Shown in pieces: positions 1-6,558 of a stretch of DNA of 64,000 nt; the stretch's first letter is position 1; each line of letters begins with the position of its first letter. The translations under genes were made by a program, and so were the position numbers. The DNA lies in the NCBI RefSeq assembly GCF_001514065.1, contig NZ_KQ948424.1, forward strand, positions 903,568-967,567. Reading direction: 5' to 3'. The notes beneath the pieces are model-generated. The model saw only the letters and a list, made by a program, of their open reading frames with translations, had not been told where the DNA came from and made no database searches. Origin of the DNA: Streptomyces antibioticus. GTDB taxonomy: Bacteria > Actinomycetota > Actinomycetes > Streptomycetales > Streptomycetaceae.

Positions 1-458
1 CCCTGCGCGAACACGGCACCGTCACCAACGAGGTGCGCACGATGGGCCCGGCCCCGGCACCGCACCCGGTCGCCGAACGCCTCCATGTCCCACCCGGCAC
101 CGATGTCCTCTACATCGAACGCCTCCGCCGCCTCAACGGCCTCCCCCTCTCCCTCGACCTCACCTACATCCCGCTCGACATCGGCACCGCCCTGCTCGGC
201 GCCGACCTGGAGAACACCGACGTCTTCCGGCTCCTGGAGTCGATCACCGGCCAGGGACTCGGCCATGCCGAGATCACCCTGGAGGCGGTGAACGCGGACG
301 CCCACTCCGCCGCCGTGCTCGAAGCCCCGCGCGGCGCGGCCGTCCTGATGCTGGAGCGCCTGACGCATCTCGCCGACGGCCGCCCCGTCGACCTGGAGTT
401 CATCCGCTTCCGCGGCGACCGCATCACGATGAGCGGCCTGCTGCACCGGTCCCTCTGA
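1..458 (+). CDS. GntR-family transcriptional regulator, C-terminal UTRA part (5' end outside window)
   Basis: The reading frame is open from the first bases of the window, so only the C-terminal part is present. What is visible is a UTRA ligand-binding fold: the stretch ending VAERLHVPPGTDVLYIERLR, then LPLSLDLTYIPLD, and a final DLEFIRFRGDRITMSGLL. This is the usual tail of HutC-type GntR repressors, which bind DNA through an N-terminal winged helix (missing here) and release it on binding a small effector. It lies 62 bp upstream of the ferredoxin/ABC/flavoprotein operon on the same strand, so it is the likely local regulator; the effector cannot be told from sequence. Confidence 0.85.
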   Translation, partial: LREHGTVTNEVRTMGPAPAPHPVAERLHVPPGTDVLYIERLRRLNGLPLSLDLTYIPLDIGTALLGADLENTDVFRLLESITGQGLGHAEITLEAVNADAHSAAVLEAPRGAAVLMLERLTHLADGRPVDLEFIRFRGDRITMSGLLHRSL

Positions 459-520: not shown

Positions 521-748
521 ATGCCCTTGGCGCCCCAGCGGGCCGACGTGCCCGTGACCATCGACGAGTCGAAGTGCATCGACGGCTGCACGCTCTGCGT
601 CGACATGTGCCCGCTGGACTCCCTCGCCATCGACGAGAGCAGCGGCAAGGCCTACATGCACGTCGACGAGTGCTGGTACTGCGGCCCGTGCGCGGCCCGC
701 TGTCCCACCGGAGCCGTCACGGTCAACATGCCCTATCTGCTCCGCTGA
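521..748 (+). CDS. Two-cluster [4Fe-4S] ferredoxin, AprB-like
   Basis: A 75-residue protein with two cysteine sets for [4Fe-4S] clusters: CIDGCTLCVDMCP (a C-x3-C variant of the first spacing) and CWYCGPCAARCP. The overall plan, with KAY just before the second cluster and a short hydrophobic tail, resembles the electron-transfer beta subunit of adenylylsulfate reductase (AprB) more than a simple bacterial ferredoxin. GGAGA five bases upstream supports the ATG. It is the first gene of an operon ending in an AprA-like flavoprotein, and by analogy would pass electrons to or from the FAD of that protein. The partner assignment is inference. Confidence 0.8.
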   Translation: MPLAPQRADVPVTIDESKCIDGCTLCVDMCPLDSLAIDESSGKAYMHVDECWYCGPCAARCPTGAVTVNMPYLLR

Positions 749-763
749 GAGGTCCCGACTCCC

Positions 764-2107
764 ATGAAGAACAAGGCAGTTGCCGCAGCCGCCCTCCTGC
801 TGCTCGCACCCCTGACGGCCTGCGGCGGCAACGCGGCAGCCGGTGACGGCTCCACGGTCACCGTGACCGTCGGCTACCAGTCCAGGACCATCAACACCGT
901 CACCGCCGGAACCCTCCTCCGCTCCCTCGGCTCCTTCGAGAAGGAGCTGAACGCCCTCGGCGACGGCAAGACCTACAAGGTCGACTGGCAGGACTACGCG
1001 ACCGGCGCCCCGATCACCGCCCAGATGACCGCCGGGAAGATCGACATCGGTTCGATGGGCGACTTCCCGCTCCTCATCAACGCGGCCCGCGGCAAACAGC
1101 TCGGCAAGCCGACCCACCTGGTCTCCGTCACCGGCTACAACCTCCGCGGCGGCCTCAACACCATCGTCACCCCGCCCGGCTCCAAGCTGGCCACGCTGAC
1201 CGACCTGCGCGGCAAGAAGGTCTCCACCAGCGTCGGCTCCGCCGCCGACGGCACCCTCGTACGGGCCCTCCAGCGTGCCGGCCTCGACCCGGACAAGGAC
1301 GTCGAGAAGCTCAACCAGCAGCCCGCGGTGGGCGCTTCGGCCCTGTCGGCGGGCAGCGCGGACGCGCTCTCCCAGTTCGTCGCCTGGCCCGGCCTGCTCA
1401 CCTACCAGCGCAAGGCCAAGGCCCTCTACGACGGCGCCCAGTTGAACCTCCCCACCTTCCACGGCGTCACCGCCCGCGAGGACTTCGCGCGGCAACGCCC
1501 CACCGTCCTGGAGGCCTTCCTCAGGGCACAGGCCGAGGCCACGGACTACCTGAACGACCACCCCGTCGACGCCGCCGAGAAGGTCGCGAAGGCCACCGGC
1601 CTGCCCGCCGAGGTCGTCTACCTCTACAACGGCGCCCACGGCATCGCCACCTTCGACCCCGCGATCAAGCCCCAGCTGGTCTCCGCCCTCAAGGACGACG
1701 TCACGATCCTGAAGTCGGCCAAGCTGACCGGCGACATCGACGTGGACGCCTTCGTCGACGACCGGTACGTCAAGAAGGCCCTCGGCACGTCGTACGCCGA
1801 GCACCTCACCGCCGCTCCGCCCGCCGCCGCGAGCGAGGTCTGGCCGAAGGGCGCCTCCGCGACCCGCTCCTTCAAGACGCCCGCCCGACTCCTCGCGTAC
1901 GTCTCGGCCCACCAGGACGGCATCCGCGCCGCCTACGTCCCCGACGCCACCACCGGCACTCTCTGGTTCGCCGACAAGGCGGTCTGGGTGGCCGACGGCG
2001 ACGAGCTGCTGCCCTTCGTCGCACCGGCGACCGCGAAGGCGTACGTCGCCGAGCACGGCGGCGCCCGCGTGGTGACGTACGCCGACGCGCTGGAGCGGGC
2101 GTCGTGA
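764..2107 (+). CDS. ABC transporter substrate-binding lipoprotein with NosL-like C-terminal domain
   Basis: 447 residues. The N-terminus is a lipoprotein signal with lipobox LTAC (Cys20), so the protein should be anchored outside the membrane. Residues about 30-350 form a periplasmic-binding fold of the NrtA/SsuA/TauA type (TAGKIDIGSMGDFPLLIN and the PGSKLATLTDLRGKKVSTSVGS hinge region), typical of nitrate, sulfonate, taurine or thiamine-precursor uptake. The last 80 residues are extra: AAYVPDATTGTLWFADKAVW and PFVAPATAKAYVAEHGGARV resemble the C-terminal half of NosL, a copper lipoprotein. I see no obvious metal ligands there. The gene overlaps the permease by 4 bp (GTGA). Substrate is unknown; an organosulfur compound is a guess from the AprBA-like partners. 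Confidence 0.8.
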   Translation: MKNKAVAAAALLLLAPLTACGGNAAAGDGSTVTVTVGYQSRTINTVTAGTLLRSLGSFEKELNALGDGKTYKVDWQDYATGAPITAQMTAGKIDIGSMGDFPLLINAARGKQLGKPTHLVSVTGYNLRGGLNTIVTPPGSKLATLTDLRGKKVSTSVGSAADGTLVRALQRAGLDPDKDVEKLNQQPAVGASALSAGSADALSQFVAWPGLLTYQRKAKALYDGAQLNLPTFHGVTAREDFARQRPTVLEAFLRAQAEATDYLNDHPVDAAEKVAKATGLPAEVVYLYNGAHGIATFDPAIKPQLVSALKDDVTILKSAKLTGDIDVDAFVDDRYVKKALGTSYAEHLTAAPPAAASEVWPKGASATRSFKTPARLLAYVSAHQDGIRAAYVPDATTGTLWFADKAVWVADGDELLPFVAPATAKAYVAEHGGARVVTYADALERAS

Positions 2108-3000
2108 GCCGCCCGCTGCCCACCGCCGGCCGGTATGCCCTGCGGGTGGCGTCCCTGGTGGTCGCCCTCGGGGTGTGGCAGGCGCTGACCGGCCTCGACA
2201 TCGACCTGTGGCTGCGCTTCTCGCAGTTCCCCACGGTCACCGACGTGGCCCACGCCTTCGCCGACCGGCTGGCCGGGCCCGACTACTGGACCGACCTCAC
2301 CGACAGCCTGACCCGCATCCTCAGCGGCTTCCTGCTGGCGGCGGTGCTCGGGGTGGCGACGGGCGTGCTCGTGGCGCGCTCGCGGCTCGCCGAGGACCTG
2401 CTCGGGCCGGTGCTGGAGGTCGTCCGCCCGATCCCGGCCATCGCCCTCGTCCCCGTCGCGATCCTCCTCTTCCCCTCCAATGAACAGGGCATCGTCTTCA
2501 TCACCTTCACCGCCGCCTACTTCCCCGTCCTGGTCTCCACCCGGCACGCGGTCCGCGCGCTGACGCCGGTGTGGGAGGAGGCGGTGCTGACGATGGGCGG
2601 CGGCCGGTGGCGGATCCTCGGCTCGGTCGTCCTGCCGGGCGCGCTGCCCGGCATCTTCGGCGGACTGTCGGTGGGCATCGGCGTCTCGTGGATCTGTGTG
2701 ATCTCCGCCGAGATGATCTCCGGCCAGTACGGCGTCGGCTACCGCACCTGGCAGGACTACACGGTCGTCGACTATCCGGGCGTCTTCGTCGGCATGGTCA
2801 CCATCGGCGTCCTCGGCTGGCTCACCTCCACGGCCGTGGAGCTGCTGGGCCGCCGCCTGACCCGCTGGCTGCCACGGACGTCGTACGACACCGGAGCCCG
2901 CCGCCCGAGAGCCGTCCGCGCAGTTGCTTCCGCGCGGGTGCCCAAGTCCGCCGCGCCCGCTGCGAAGACCAAGGAGGCACGCGATGAGCACCTCGTCTGA
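2104..3000 (+). CDS. ABC transporter permease, SsuC/TauC/NrtB type
   Basis: 298 residues with about six hydrophobic segments of the BPD_transp_1 family. The cytoplasmic EAA loop that contacts the ATPase is visible as EEAVLTMGGGRWRILGSVVL. A GTG start overlaps the stop of the binding-protein gene by 4 bp, indicating translational coupling. The C-terminal 35 residues are polar and Ala/Lys/Arg rich, longer than usual, and overlap the start of the ATPase gene. The protein would form the membrane channel of the importer encoded here. Confidence 0.88.
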   Translation: MSRPLPTAGRYALRVASLVVALGVWQALTGLDIDLWLRFSQFPTVTDVAHAFADRLAGPDYWTDLTDSLTRILSGFLLAAVLGVATGVLVARSRLAEDLLGPVLEVVRPIPAIALVPVAILLFPSNEQGIVFITFTAAYFPVLVSTRHAVRALTPVWEEAVLTMGGGRWRILGSVVLPGALPGIFGGLSVGIGVSWICVISAEMISGQYGVGYRTWQDYTVVDYPGVFVGMVTIGVLGWLTSTAVELLGRRLTRWLPRTSYDTGARRPRAVRAVASARVPKSAAPAAKTKEARDEHLV

Positions 3001-3763
3001 GACAGCCACCACCTCCACCGGGGCGATGGCCCGCGGCACCCGGCTCACCCTCCGCGCCGCCACCCTCGGCCGCCCCGGCGCGCCCGCCGTCAGCGGCGTC
3101 GACCTCGACGTGGCCCCCGGCGAGATCCTCACCGTCGTCGGACCGTCCGGCTGCGGCAAGTCGACGCTGCTGCGCACGCTGGCTGGCCTGCTGGCCCCCC
3201 TCGACGGCGAGGCCGACCAGGACGGCCGACCGCTGACGGGCCCTTGCGCCGACCGCGCCCTGGTCTTCCAGGAGGACGCCCTGCTGCCCTGGCGCACCTT
3301 GCGCGCGAACGTGGAACTCCCCCTCGCCATCAAGGGATTGGCCCGCGCCGACCGCAGGCGGCAGGCCGAGTCCTGGCTCGCCCGCGTCGGGCTCACCGAA
3401 CAGTCCGGGCAGCTGCCGCACCGCGTCTCCGGAGGCCAGCGCCAGCGCGCCCAGCTGGCCCGGGCCCTGGCCGGCCGGCCGCGCGCGGTGCTGATGGACG
3501 AACCGTTCGGCGCGCTCGACGCCCAGACCCGCGCGGGCATGCAGGACCTGCTCGTGGAGGTGCTGCACGGCACCGGCGCGACCGTCGTCTTCGTCACCCA
3601 CGACGTCGACGAGGCCCTCTTCCTCGGCGACCGCGTCGCCCTCCTCGGCAACGGCCGCCTCACCGCCGTACGCGAGGTGCCGCGGCCCCGCGACCGCACC
3701 GCGCGCGACGACCCGGCGCGGCTCGCGCTGCGGCGCGACGTCCTGTCCTCCCTCGGTTCCTGA
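2984..3763 (+). CDS. ABC transporter ATP-binding protein, SsuB/TauB type
   Basis: 259 residues with all nucleotide-binding motifs: Walker A GPSGCGKST (residues 53-61), the Q-loop in VFQEDALLPW, signature VSGGQRQR, Walker B VLMDEPFGALD and the switch histidine in VFVTHDVDEA. The chosen ATG is preceded by AAGGAGG seven bases upstream; an in-frame upstream ATG at 2924 lies inside the permease gene and lacks such a site. The gene overlaps the permease by 17 bp. It would energise the importer of this operon. Confidence 0.9.
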   Translation: MSTSSETATTSTGAMARGTRLTLRAATLGRPGAPAVSGVDLDVAPGEILTVVGPSGCGKSTLLRTLAGLLAPLDGEADQDGRPLTGPCADRALVFQEDALLPWRTLRANVELPLAIKGLARADRRRQAESWLARVGLTEQSGQLPHRVSGGQRQRAQLARALAGRPRAVLMDEPFGALDAQTRAGMQDLLVEVLHGTGATVVFVTHDVDEALFLGDRVALLGNGRLTAVREVPRPRDRTARDDPARLALRRDVLSSLGS

Positions 3764-3774
3764 AAGGCCCCTCG

Positions 3775-6558
3775 GTGACCAGCCCCGCGAACACCCCCCT
3801 GGCGATCCCCGCCCTCACCGACGCCGAGGAACTCTCCTGCGACGTCCTCGTCATCGGCGGCGGCACCGCCGGCACCATGGCCGCGCTGACCGCCGCCGAG
3901 CACGGCGCCGACGTGATCCTCCTGGAGAAGGCCCACGTCCGGCACTCCGGCGCCCTCGCCATGGGCATGGACGGCGTCAACAACGCGGTCGTCCCGGGCC
4001 GCGCCGAGCCCGACGACTACGTCGCCGAGATCACCCGCGCCAACGACGGCATCGTCGACCAGTCCACCGTCCGCCAGACCGCCACCCGCGGCTTCGCCAT
4101 GGTGCAGCGCCTGGAGTCGTACGGCGTGAAGTTCGAGAAGGACGAGCACGGCGACTACGCGGTCCGGCAGGTCCACCGCTCCGGCTCCTATGTGCTGCCG
4201 ATGCCGGAGGGCAAGGACGTCAAGAAGGTCCTCTACCGGCAGTTGCGGCGGCGCGAGATGCGGGAGCGGATCCGCATCGAGAACCGGGTGATGCCGGTGC
4301 GGGTGCTGACGGCCGACGGGCGGGCCGTGGGGGCTGTCGGCTTCAACACCCGCACGGGCGCCTTCGTGACGGTCCGCGCGGGCGCGGTCATCCTCGCGAC
4401 CGGCGCCTGCGGCCGCCTCGGCCTGCCCGCCTCCGGCTACCTCTACGGCACCTACGAGAACCCCACCAACGCGGGCGACGGCTACGCCATGGCCTACCAC
4501 GCGGGTGCCGAGCTCACCGGCATCGAGTGCTTCCAGATCAACCCGCTGATCAAGGACTACAACGGCCCCGCCTGCGCCTACGTCGCCAACCCCTTCGGCG
4601 GCTACCAGGTCAACCGGCACGGCGAACGCTTCGTCGACTCCGACTACTGGTCCGGCCAGATGATGGCGGAGTTCGCGGCGGAGGTGGCGTCCGACCGGGG
4701 GCCGGTCTACCTGAAGCTCAGCCACCTCCCCGAGGAGTCGGTCTCGGCGCTGGAGTCGATCCTGCACTCCACCGAGCGGCCCACGCGCGGCACCTTCCAC
4801 GCGGGCCGGGGCCACGACTACCGCACCCACGACATCGAGATGCACATCTCCGAGATCGGCCTGTGCGGCGGCCACTCGGCTTCCGGGGTACGAGTCGACG
4901 ACCACGCCCGGACGACCGTCCCCCGCCTCTACGCCGCCGGCGACCTGGCCTGCGTCCCGCACAACTACATGATCGGCGCCTTCGTCTTCGGCGACCTCGC
5001 GGGCGCGGACGCGGCCCAGTACGCGGCCTACGAAGGGGAGTTGCCCGCCGACCAGCTCCGCGAGGCGCACGAACTGATCTACCGCCCGCTGCGCAACCCG
5101 GACGGGCCGCCGCAGCCCCAGGTCGAGTACAAGCTGCGCCGCTTCGTGAACGACTACGTGGCCCCGCCGAAGTCGGGAGCCCGGTTGTCGCTCGCCCTGG
5201 AGTCCTTCGAGCGGATGCGGGACGACATCGCCGCAATGGGCGCGCGCACCCCGCACGAGCTGATGCGCTGCGCCGAGGTCTCCTTCATCCGCGACTGCGC
5301 GGAGATGGCCGCGCGCGCCTCCCTGGCCCGCACGGAGTCCCGCTGGGGCCTCTACCACGACCGTCTCGACCACCCTCATCGCGACGACGCCTCCTGGTTC
5401 CACCACCTCGATCTGCACAAGTCCCCCTCTGGTGCGATGGAGTTCACGGCCCGTCCCGTGGCTCCCTATCTGGTCCCGGTCGAGGAGTTCACCCCGACCG
5501 GCGGCGCCTCCCGGCACCTCGGCGAGGTGCATCCGGAAGAGGTGGCGACGGCCGGGTCCCGGGACCGGGCGCCGGTGGCGGCGGGGGCCGGGGACGGCGT
5601 GCCGGAGCCTTCCGGCCACGACGCCGGTGCCGGCCGCACCGGACACGGCTCCCGTCCCGCCGCCGAGCAGTCGGCCACTCGGCTCCTGGAGCTGGTGGCC
5701 CTCGCCGAGGAGGAGCCGGAACTCGACGCCCTGCGGCCCTACTTGACCGACCCGGCGGCCACGGTCCGGCGTGAGGCCGTCGCCGTGCTCACCGAGACCC
5801 TGCCCCCGGGCACCGGCCCCGCCCTGGCCGAGGCGCTCCGCGACCCCGCCGCCGAGGTCCGTGCCGCCGCCGCGGCCTCGCTGCGCGAGCTGGTCGAGAC
5901 GCTCCCGCCCGAACCCGCCCTGCGCGAGGGCCTCGCCGTCGCCCTCCGCGAACCCGACCCTGTCGTACGCGCTGCCGCCCTCGATGTCCTGCGCGCCCTG
6001 CGGCTGGGCGACACCGCGCTGTTCACGGGCTCCCTGACGGACGACGACATCGCCGTCCGCATCGAGACCGTACGTGCCCTCGTCTCCGTCGACGCCGCCG
6101 GGGAACTGGCCCGCGCGGCGACGTCCGACCCGTCCCGCGAGGTCCGCGTCACCTTCGCCAAGGCCCTGGCGACGGTGTCCACAGGGCGCCCCGAGGTCGT
6201 CCTGCCCGCCCTCTCCACGCTCACGGCGGACGCCGACGCCCTGGTTCGAGGCGCCGCCTACGCCGCCCTGGGCACCACCGGTTGCCCCGGATCGCTCGCC
6301 GAGCGGGCCGTCGCCGCCCTGGGAGATGCGACCTGGCAGGTGCGGTCCGGAGCAGCGACCGCCCTCTCCGGAGCGGAGGCCGACACCGCCGTCCCCGCCC
6401 TGGCCAAGGCCCTCGCCGACCCGAACGCCGACGTCCGCAAGGCTGCGGTCCTGGCCCTGACCCGGCACACGGCCACCGAGGGCGCCCGCGCCGCCCTGGC
6501 CACGGCCACGGCCGACTCGGACGCGGACGTCAGGGCGTACGCGTCACGAGCGCTGTGA
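3775..6558 (+). CDS. FAD-dependent AprA/fumarate-reductase-like flavoprotein fused to HEAT repeats
   Basis: 927 residues from a GTG start 11 bp after the ATPase stop. Residues 20-570 are a flavoprotein of the succinate dehydrogenase/fumarate reductase/APS reductase superfamily: the dinucleotide fold VIGGGTAGTMAALTAAEHGA (about 26-45), LLEK ending the second strand, TNAGDGYAMAYHAGAEL, and the late FAD motif RLYAAGDLACVPHNYMIGAF. The GGHSASG and PHNYMIGAFVFG segments look closer to AprA than to fumarate reductase. After a Gly/Ala-rich linker (about 571-637) come roughly 290 residues of alpha-helical HEAT repeats (ADPNADVRKAAVLALTRH and similar). With the AprB-like ferredoxin and the importer it suggests uptake and redox processing of one substrate. 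The reaction is not known. Confidence 0.8.
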   Translation: MTSPANTPLAIPALTDAEELSCDVLVIGGGTAGTMAALTAAEHGADVILLEKAHVRHSGALAMGMDGVNNAVVPGRAEPDDYVAEITRANDGIVDQSTVRQTATRGFAMVQRLESYGVKFEKDEHGDYAVRQVHRSGSYVLPMPEGKDVKKVLYRQLRRREMRERIRIENRVMPVRVLTADGRAVGAVGFNTRTGAFVTVRAGAVILATGACGRLGLPASGYLYGTYENPTNAGDGYAMAYHAGAELTGIECFQINPLIKDYNGPACAYVANPFGGYQVNRHGERFVDSDYWSGQMMAEFAAEVASDRGPVYLKLSHLPEESVSALESILHSTERPTRGTFHAGRGHDYRTHDIEMHISEIGLCGGHSASGVRVDDHARTTVPRLYAAGDLACVPHNYMIGAFVFGDLAGADAAQYAAYEGELPADQLREAHELIYRPLRNPDGPPQPQVEYKLRRFVNDYVAPPKSGARLSLALESFERMRDDIAAMGARTPHELMRCAEVSFIRDCAEMAARASLARTESRWGLYHDRLDHPHRDDASWFHHLDLHKSPSGAMEFTARPVAPYLVPVEEFTPTGGASRHLGEVHPEEVATAGSRDRAPVAAGAGDGVPEPSGHDAGAGRTGHGSRPAAEQSATRLLELVALAEEEPELDALRPYLTDPAATVRREAVAVLTETLPPGTGPALAEALRDPAAEVRAAAAASLRELVETLPPEPALREGLAVALREPDPVVRAAALDVLRALRLGDTALFTGSLTDDDIAVRIETVRALVSVDAAGELARAATSDPSREVRVTFAKALATVSTGRPEVVLPALSTLTADADALVRGAAYAALGTTGCPGSLAERAVAALGDATWQVRSGAATALSGAEADTAVPALAKALADPNADVRKAAVLALTRHTATEGARAALATATADSDADVRAYASRAL

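Follow-up and report, generated by a model that had tools for sequence, protein, structure and literature searches.

Gene content and layout

The window, a 64,000-nucleotide stretch of the 10.1 Mb genome of Streptomyces antibioticus, contains a compact group of genes near its start. Open reading frame positions and profile scans place five genes on the + strand between positions 521 and 6558, in the tight order ferredoxin, substrate-binding protein (SBP), permease, ATPase and flavoprotein. They follow the 3' part of a gene for a GntR/HutC-type regulator with a UTRA domain (1..458, + strand; Pfam UTRA, 122.6 bits). The regulator gene is cut by the start of the window; its true start is located about 340 bases upstream (L006:6658 or 6670), and the full open reading frame is present in L006. 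Alignment of the regions upstream of this gene revealed two conserved direct repeats, and no clear palindrome was found in it as a regulator site. The ferredoxin gene begins 62 bases after the regulator gene. Gaps of 15 and 11 bases separate the ferredoxin and SBP genes and the ATPase and flavoprotein genes, respectively. The permease start overlaps the SBP stop by 4 bases, and the ATPase and permease genes overlap by 17 bases. An earlier note on this DNA had described a tight operon under a GntR gene, and the open reading frame positions and the Pfam and NCBIfam scans confirmed it.

The first of the five genes (521..748, + strand; Fer4_7, 44.6 bits) encodes a 2[4Fe-4S] ferredoxin of 75 amino acids. 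Its eight cysteines are invariant in 11 of 11 homologues, indicating a partner protein with two [4Fe-4S] clusters. Trp52, in the motif DECWYC, adjoins a cluster cysteine and is also invariant in all 11. By score the ferredoxin is no nearer to AprB than to other two-cluster ferredoxins, and the partner ferredoxins of the family are 75 to 81 residues long. Trp52 sits about where AprB-type subunits have a tryptophan thought to carry electrons. Aligned ranges, taken as ranges and not as letters, place it at 41-42 of the β subunit of MtPAPSR, the AprBA-like PAPS reductase of Methanothermococcus thermolithotrophicus, and at 47-48 of AprB. The MtPAPSR β subunit contains Trp42 (PMC10322725, in excerpt).

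The next three genes appear to encode an ABC importer. The SBP (764..2107, + strand) is a lipoprotein of the SsuA/TauA/NrtA type (NMT1/SsuA-type in the Pfam and NCBIfam scans) with the lipobox LTAC. The permease (2104..3000, + strand; BPD_transp_1, 70.1 bits) has an EAA-like loop visible in its sequence. The ATPase (2984..3763, + strand) is of the TauB/SsuB/NrtD type, and reaches 214 bits with the taurine ATPase model, under the equivalog cut-off of 357. The parts of the transporter are of importer type: its SBP is a lipoprotein and its permease belongs to BPD_transp_1, both hallmarks of import. The coupling to an SsuABC-type importer described in the earlier note was supported.

The top NCBIfam match of the SBP is SsuA_fam (TIGR01728), with 141 bits and below the cut-off of 163.5. 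Structural comparison of the SBP model gave Z scores of 29.9 for X. citri SsuA, 27.7 for E. coli SsuA, 26.9 for TauA, 26.4 for CmpC, and 25.5 each for the SsuA structure 3uif, NrtA and CmpA. As modeled, the fold has its best matches among solved sulfonate binders, and CmpC ties with TauA.

Unlike the sulfonate importers SsuABC and TauABC, the window SBP has an additional NosL-like domain (1856..2086, + strand; PF05573, 25.0 bits against a cut-off of 24 with the C-terminal piece alone). C-terminal SBP pieces scanned alone matched NosL in seven of seven cases, and four of these were above the gathering score. With full-length SBPs, NosL was not detected at E 0.01 in L113 and L117, and scored under the cut-off in L118 and L121. 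A NosL entry was not among the structural matches of the SBP model, a comparison that barely covered this domain. A copper site of the NosL type is unlikely in the window SBP, because its NosL-like stretch contains neither Cys nor Met.

The aerobic enzymes best known for acting on sulfonates, such as SsuD and TauD, belong to the monooxygenases or dioxygenases. Neither was found in the window operon by the Pfam and NCBIfam scans, a second difference from the SsuABC and TauABC systems. A PADLOC scan gave HEAT- and ATPase-type matches only.

The last gene (3775..6558, + strand) has a GTG start and encodes an FAD flavoprotein (FAD_binding_2) of the family PRK13800/PRK08275. Residue numbers given here for it count from codon 3772, so one has to be subtracted for the GTG start at 3775. 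The whole protein scores 1663.4 bits with NCBIfam NF010374 (PRK13800; curated cut-off 1196) and 870.4 bits with NF006131 (cut-off 587). Its last third is a HEAT-repeat domain (5656..6558, + strand; HEAT_2, 94.7 bits), which the structure model shows as helical repeats over residues 629-927. The mean pLDDT of this model is 60.8; much of the FAD core is below 50, and the HEAT part is reliable. The HEAT domain and the NosL-like domain of the SBP are absent from the earlier note.

Relationships and active site of the flavoprotein

The earlier note had compared the operon to AprBA. That architecture is indeed present, with an AprA-class flavoprotein and a two-cluster, eight-cysteine ferredoxin. A true AprA function did not hold up. 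The NCBIfam runners-up after NF010374 and NF006131 are NF005331 (269 bits), fumarate reductase TfrA (155), Sdh/Frd (144) and TIGR02061 (127). Both APS-reductase alpha models score far under their cut-offs (126.9 against 641.75 bits for TIGR02061, 268.8 against 557 for NF005331), and key residues differ. The model of its own family carries only a generic name, ‘fumarate reductase/succinate dehydrogenase flavoprotein subunit’, and no settled role was found for the family.

The top solved relative by sequence is the α subunit of MtPAPSR (PDB 8a8o), with 195 bits, followed by A. fulgidus AprA (105), SdhA (83) and D. gigas AprA (64). Searching with a family profile instead gives 283, 204, 136 and 123, in the same order. 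In a tree with columns projected from alignments, of which AprA spans 427 of 583, the 11 family members are located apart from all outgroups (0.972), with their sister outgroup left unsettled. MtPAPSR and AprA are joined (1.000). Sdh and the PF02910 proteins of the own genome form another group, distinct from the family. The phylogeny that the earlier note had called for thus separates the family from both the MtPAPSR/AprA and the Sdh groups.

The residues were compared at two known active sites. AprA Asn74, Glu141, Trp234, Phe261 and Arg265 are presumably AMP/sulfite-site residues. Gln145 of AprA is another (PMC10322725, excerpted text). Among these six, Asn74 is the one kept, as Asn70 in 11 of 11 family members. 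Trp234 is substituted with Tyr, Phe261 with Gln and Gln145 with Val, and Glu141 by varied residues that are never Glu. Arg265, which is conserved in MtPAPSR, is replaced by Leu259 in all 11. Because this arginine is lost, a sulfur group, if bound at the FAD, would be held otherwise than in AprA. Two histidines are retained: His368, which is present in MtPAPSR at a position where AprA is unaligned, and His397, which is present in AprA. AprA His398 falls outside the aligned AprA columns. The Lys120-Arg121-Ser122 loop of MtPAPSR reads His-Arg-Ser in the window protein and is variable across the family. All 11 family members have Asn, Ala and Gly at the positions of Sdh His242, Thr254 and Arg286, which we take to be the catalytic residues.

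The flavoprotein shares with MtPAPSR the combination of an FAD α subunit and a 2[4Fe-4S] β subunit, and with AprBA a C-terminal RxESRWxxYxxRxDxP-like region, Asn74 and the eight-cysteine ferredoxin. It is 29.5% identical to MtPAPSR over 528 columns and 34.9% identical to AprA over 427 aligned columns. It differs from AprA in the five lost site residues, and from MtPAPSR in that the family adds an importer and HEAT repeats. MtPAPSR is used in assimilation (PMC10322725, in excerpt). ATP sulfurylase or APS kinase was not annotated near any of 19 annotated distant loci described below. The flavoprotein forms, as far as its sequence indicates, a branch of its own with AprBA architecture; by membership it is not an APS reductase and not a PAPS reductase, though of their build. 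Identification as a true APS or PAPS reductase was rejected on profile scores and residues, and so was succinate dehydrogenase. The database name of the family is misleading, because of the profile scores, the tree and the residue changes.

Occurrence of the operon in other bacteria

Within the genus, a flavoprotein above the NF010374 cut-off is encoded by 21 of 61 genomes, the own genome counted. In a sample of the phylum, 8 of 296 are above the NF006131 cut-off, again with the own genome counted. Among the matches listed, those nearest to the flavoprotein core are from Streptomyces, with S. justiciae first at 99%. We analyzed 80 loci, the best 80 of at least 577 confirmed relatives in GTDB contigs and thus close relatives by construction. 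The genes for GntR, ferredoxin, SBP, permease, ATPase and flavoprotein-HEAT are found in the same order and on the same strand in 75 of them. Among the other five, three (L059, L091, L101) are truncated where their contigs end, L084 is without GntR, and in L107 the GntR gene runs into the ATPase gene, through a deletion or an assembly collapse. Because 75 of 80 related loci keep all genes, their order and their strand, conservation of the operon is far beyond chance.

The earlier note had linked the gene set to an aerobic actinomycete. It is not special to such bacteria, as the set also occurs in Pseudomonadota and Cyanobacteriota. Homologues 56-60% identical are located on plasmid records from these two phyla, and one in Tsukamurella is 79% identical. 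We examined 20 of 53 matched plasmid records, a non-random choice; gene counts in them combine homology searches with annotations, L120 being unannotated. Flavoprotein, ferredoxin and HEAT genes are present in all 20 distant loci, and cognate SBP, permease and ATPase genes in 17, the set being incomplete in L112, L114 and L115. The neighbors are therefore kept together in near and distant loci alike. Neither this refuting condition of the earlier note, a lack of joint conservation, nor its other one, a known family with another settled role, was borne out. HEAT is a separate gene in the 19 non-actinomycete loci (18 by annotation, L120 by tblastn) and is fused in L113. The fusion suggests that HEAT belongs to the flavoprotein complex.

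A GntR homologue accompanies 8 of the 20 distant copies. DUF971 genes are found with 11 and Mrp genes with 4, so that 15 have one or the other. YeiH plus TauE/SafE occur in 3 of the 20, and sulfite/sulfate-exporter-type genes adjoin three of four cyanobacterial copies. For the count of flanking genes, 8 of the 19 annotated loci had a control stretch and were used. Genes of the operon core, GntR, DUF971 and Mrp among them, do not enter this count, and its keywords were picked after the flanks had been read.

A copy of the operon has been described in A. baumannii. A1S_1717-1722 was published in April 2026 as a ‘GntR-ABC efflux’ system that is co-transcribed, activated by its own GntR and among the genes induced by H2O2 (PMC13104710, in excerpt). 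Its ferredoxin gene is among the genes expressed only in biofilm by RNA-seq (excerpt of PMC3758355). In gene order the plasmid copy L121 matches A1S_1717-1722, and its GntR, SBP, permease and ATPase are as long as those published (247, 476, 284 and 279 residues). Intergenic distances agree in three of five cases (28, 19 and 34) and differ in two, with 20 against 74 and 1 against 16. The L121 genes are homologous to those in the window, and the flavoproteins are 57% identical. The A. baumannii operon is, judged from these comparisons, orthologous to the window operon. It differs in that the flavoprotein and ferredoxin genes come first and HEAT is a gene of its own. In the excerpt of PMC13104710, no enzymatic role is assigned. 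Searches of the open-access literature, with subscription papers mostly outside their scope, yielded no function for the operon besides that report, and excerpts of PMC7661421 and PMC8557817 contain nothing about it. ‘Undescribed’, the term of the earlier note, is thus apt for the function and no longer so for the operon, which recurs in distant bacteria and has no function that is agreed upon.

Proposed function and alternatives

The analysis suggested a sulfur-scavenging module in which an importer-fed flavo-iron-sulfur complex frees usable sulfur from an organosulfonate-like acid, a proposal that we regard as evenly balanced. The SsuA-type lipoprotein with its NosL-like domain, the permease and the ATPase would import the acid. 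In the cytosol, HEAT may join the flavoprotein and the 2[4Fe-4S] ferredoxin in a complex whose build resembles that of AprBA and of the methanogen PAPS reductase. Ferredoxin and FAD would exchange low-potential electrons, and splitting or reduction of the substrate at the flavin would give sulfite or another form of sulfur that the cell can use directly. The released sulfur may then enter cysteine synthesis. DUF971 and Mrp genes could contribute to Fe-S delivery to the complex; HCF101 unites DUF971 and Mrp domains. We infer what class of substrate is used, which way the electrons flow, that sulfite is the product and that the complex forms, and at this level an organosulfur acid is, as in the earlier note, the likeliest cargo.

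A more specific version is tentative. The complex may be a new class of ferredoxin-linked desulfonase, common to Actinomycetota, Pseudomonadota and Cyanobacteriota, that combines AprBA architecture and HEAT repeats with a rebuilt active site and its own SsuA-NosL importer, and that needs no flavin monooxygenase to free sulfite from the organosulfonate taken up. For this conserved module, in which a variant form of the AprBA-type enzymes is joined to an importer of the sulfonate type, sulfur scavenging is a promising but unproven role. If true, the pairing of such an importer with an AprBA-like reductase would be an additional route for soil and aquatic sulfur. It would also give a function to a protein family misnamed as fumarate reductase, and recast the A. 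baumannii ‘efflux’ operon as a nutrient uptake system.

The module could instead import and reduce another small anion or a nitrogen compound, such as nitrate, bicarbonate, a pyrimidine or a phosphonate, which we consider rather unlikely. Against this, the top SsuA exceeds CmpC by 3.5 Z units and NrtA and CmpA by 4.4, SsuA_fam is the top family match, and sulfite/sulfate-type exporter genes adjoin three loci.

An indirect role in sulfur use is improbable. Here the complex would give electrons or serve Fe-S clusters, and another enzyme, for example an LLM monooxygenase, would cleave the substrate. The DUF971 or Mrp genes adjoining the 15 distant copies are consistent with this, as are LLM monooxygenase genes near L144 and L147. 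However, no cleaving enzyme recurs in the 20 loci, where the recurrent genes are those for the importer, flavoprotein, ferredoxin, HEAT, and DUF971 or Mrp.

About as improbable is that the operon is the known asfRABC cluster for arylsulfonate desulfonation in Pseudomonas and relatives. In the excerpt of PMC4267179, asfRABC is described as a substrate-binding protein, an ABC transporter, a reductase/ferredoxin pair and a LysR regulator, a parts list resembling the window operon except that the regulator here is GntR. According to the same excerpt, asfA is required for aromatic but not aliphatic sulfonates, and asf genera (Variovorax, Cupriavidus, Paraburkholderia) overlap with the hosts of the family. 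C. metallidurans CH34 has AsfA/AsfB as Rmet_4334/5 (PMC2864759, in excerpt). However, its 2.58 Mb megaplasmid NC_007974.2, on which Rmet_4334 is assumed to lie, contains no NF006131 member (top score 83.8 bits against the cut-off of 587), and this record, part of the searched collection, is missing from the 53 matched plasmid records. A TcuA/TcuB pair is found near the place of Rmet_4334/5 as estimated from gene numbering, the record being unannotated. Identity with asfAB was not supported in the one strain tested, which has no family member on this replicon.

It is quite improbable that the operon is a system for oxidative stress and drug efflux. The orthology of L121 and A1S_1717-1722 (gene order, four lengths, three of five distances) would extend to the window operon the role in H2O2 tolerance and drug resistance reported for A. 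baumannii (PMC13104710, in excerpt). However, the lipoprotein SBP and the BPD_transp_1 permease point to import, and efflux leaves the flavoprotein, ferredoxin and HEAT genes unexplained. COG0715/0600/1116 are, we assume, importer families. These are the very assignments made in the excerpt of PMC13104710. Finally, an ordinary succinate dehydrogenase/fumarate reductase that stands beside an importer by accident, as the automatic name would have it, is so improbable that it can be dismissed: the presumed catalytic residues are replaced, the annotations of the 19 distant loci list nothing like SdhB, SdhC or SdhD, the flavoprotein is partnered by a ferredoxin of 75-81 residues, and the own genome has other PF02910 proteins.

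NosL-like domain of the binding protein

The SsuA-type substrate-binding protein is joined to a NosL-like domain (positions 1856-2086 of the window). NosL was matched by all seven C-terminal pieces of the binding protein from the family, four of them above the Pfam cut-off. Two full-length relatives of the protein gave no NosL match in a full-length scan.

Region upstream of the GntR gene

The sequence GCAACAC occurs twice as direct repeats 5' of the GntR start, about 384 bases ahead of window position 1 (L006:6616-6637, in the stretch carrying the full GntR reading frame). These repeats are mostly kept across related loci in a 33-row alignment. They are possibly an operator.

Operon relatives and their surroundings

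In S. bikiniensis, the GntR gene leads straight into the ATPase gene, and the ferredoxin, binding protein and permease genes are absent (L107:7018-7947). Their absence reflects either a deletion or an assembly collapse. On the A. caldus plasmid, both permease and ATPase are present (L115:16065-18099); no binding protein gene is annotated close to them, and tblastn yields just a weak 55-bit piece. Defence-type genes are located close to two other plasmid copies of the operon, ThiF/Mov34/SAVED genes in Tsukamurella (L113:15281-19567) and QatC/QatD in Methylobacterium (L117:2784-4831). In Mesorhizobium sp. AR07, two overlapping coding sequences are annotated for the HEAT gene (L145:11957-12914).

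On the C. metallidurans megaplasmid, a TcuA/TcuB pair (L123:33508-36226) lies close to the position, as estimated from gene numbering, of the genes published under the names AsfA/AsfB. The asf label in this strain may need to be re-checked.
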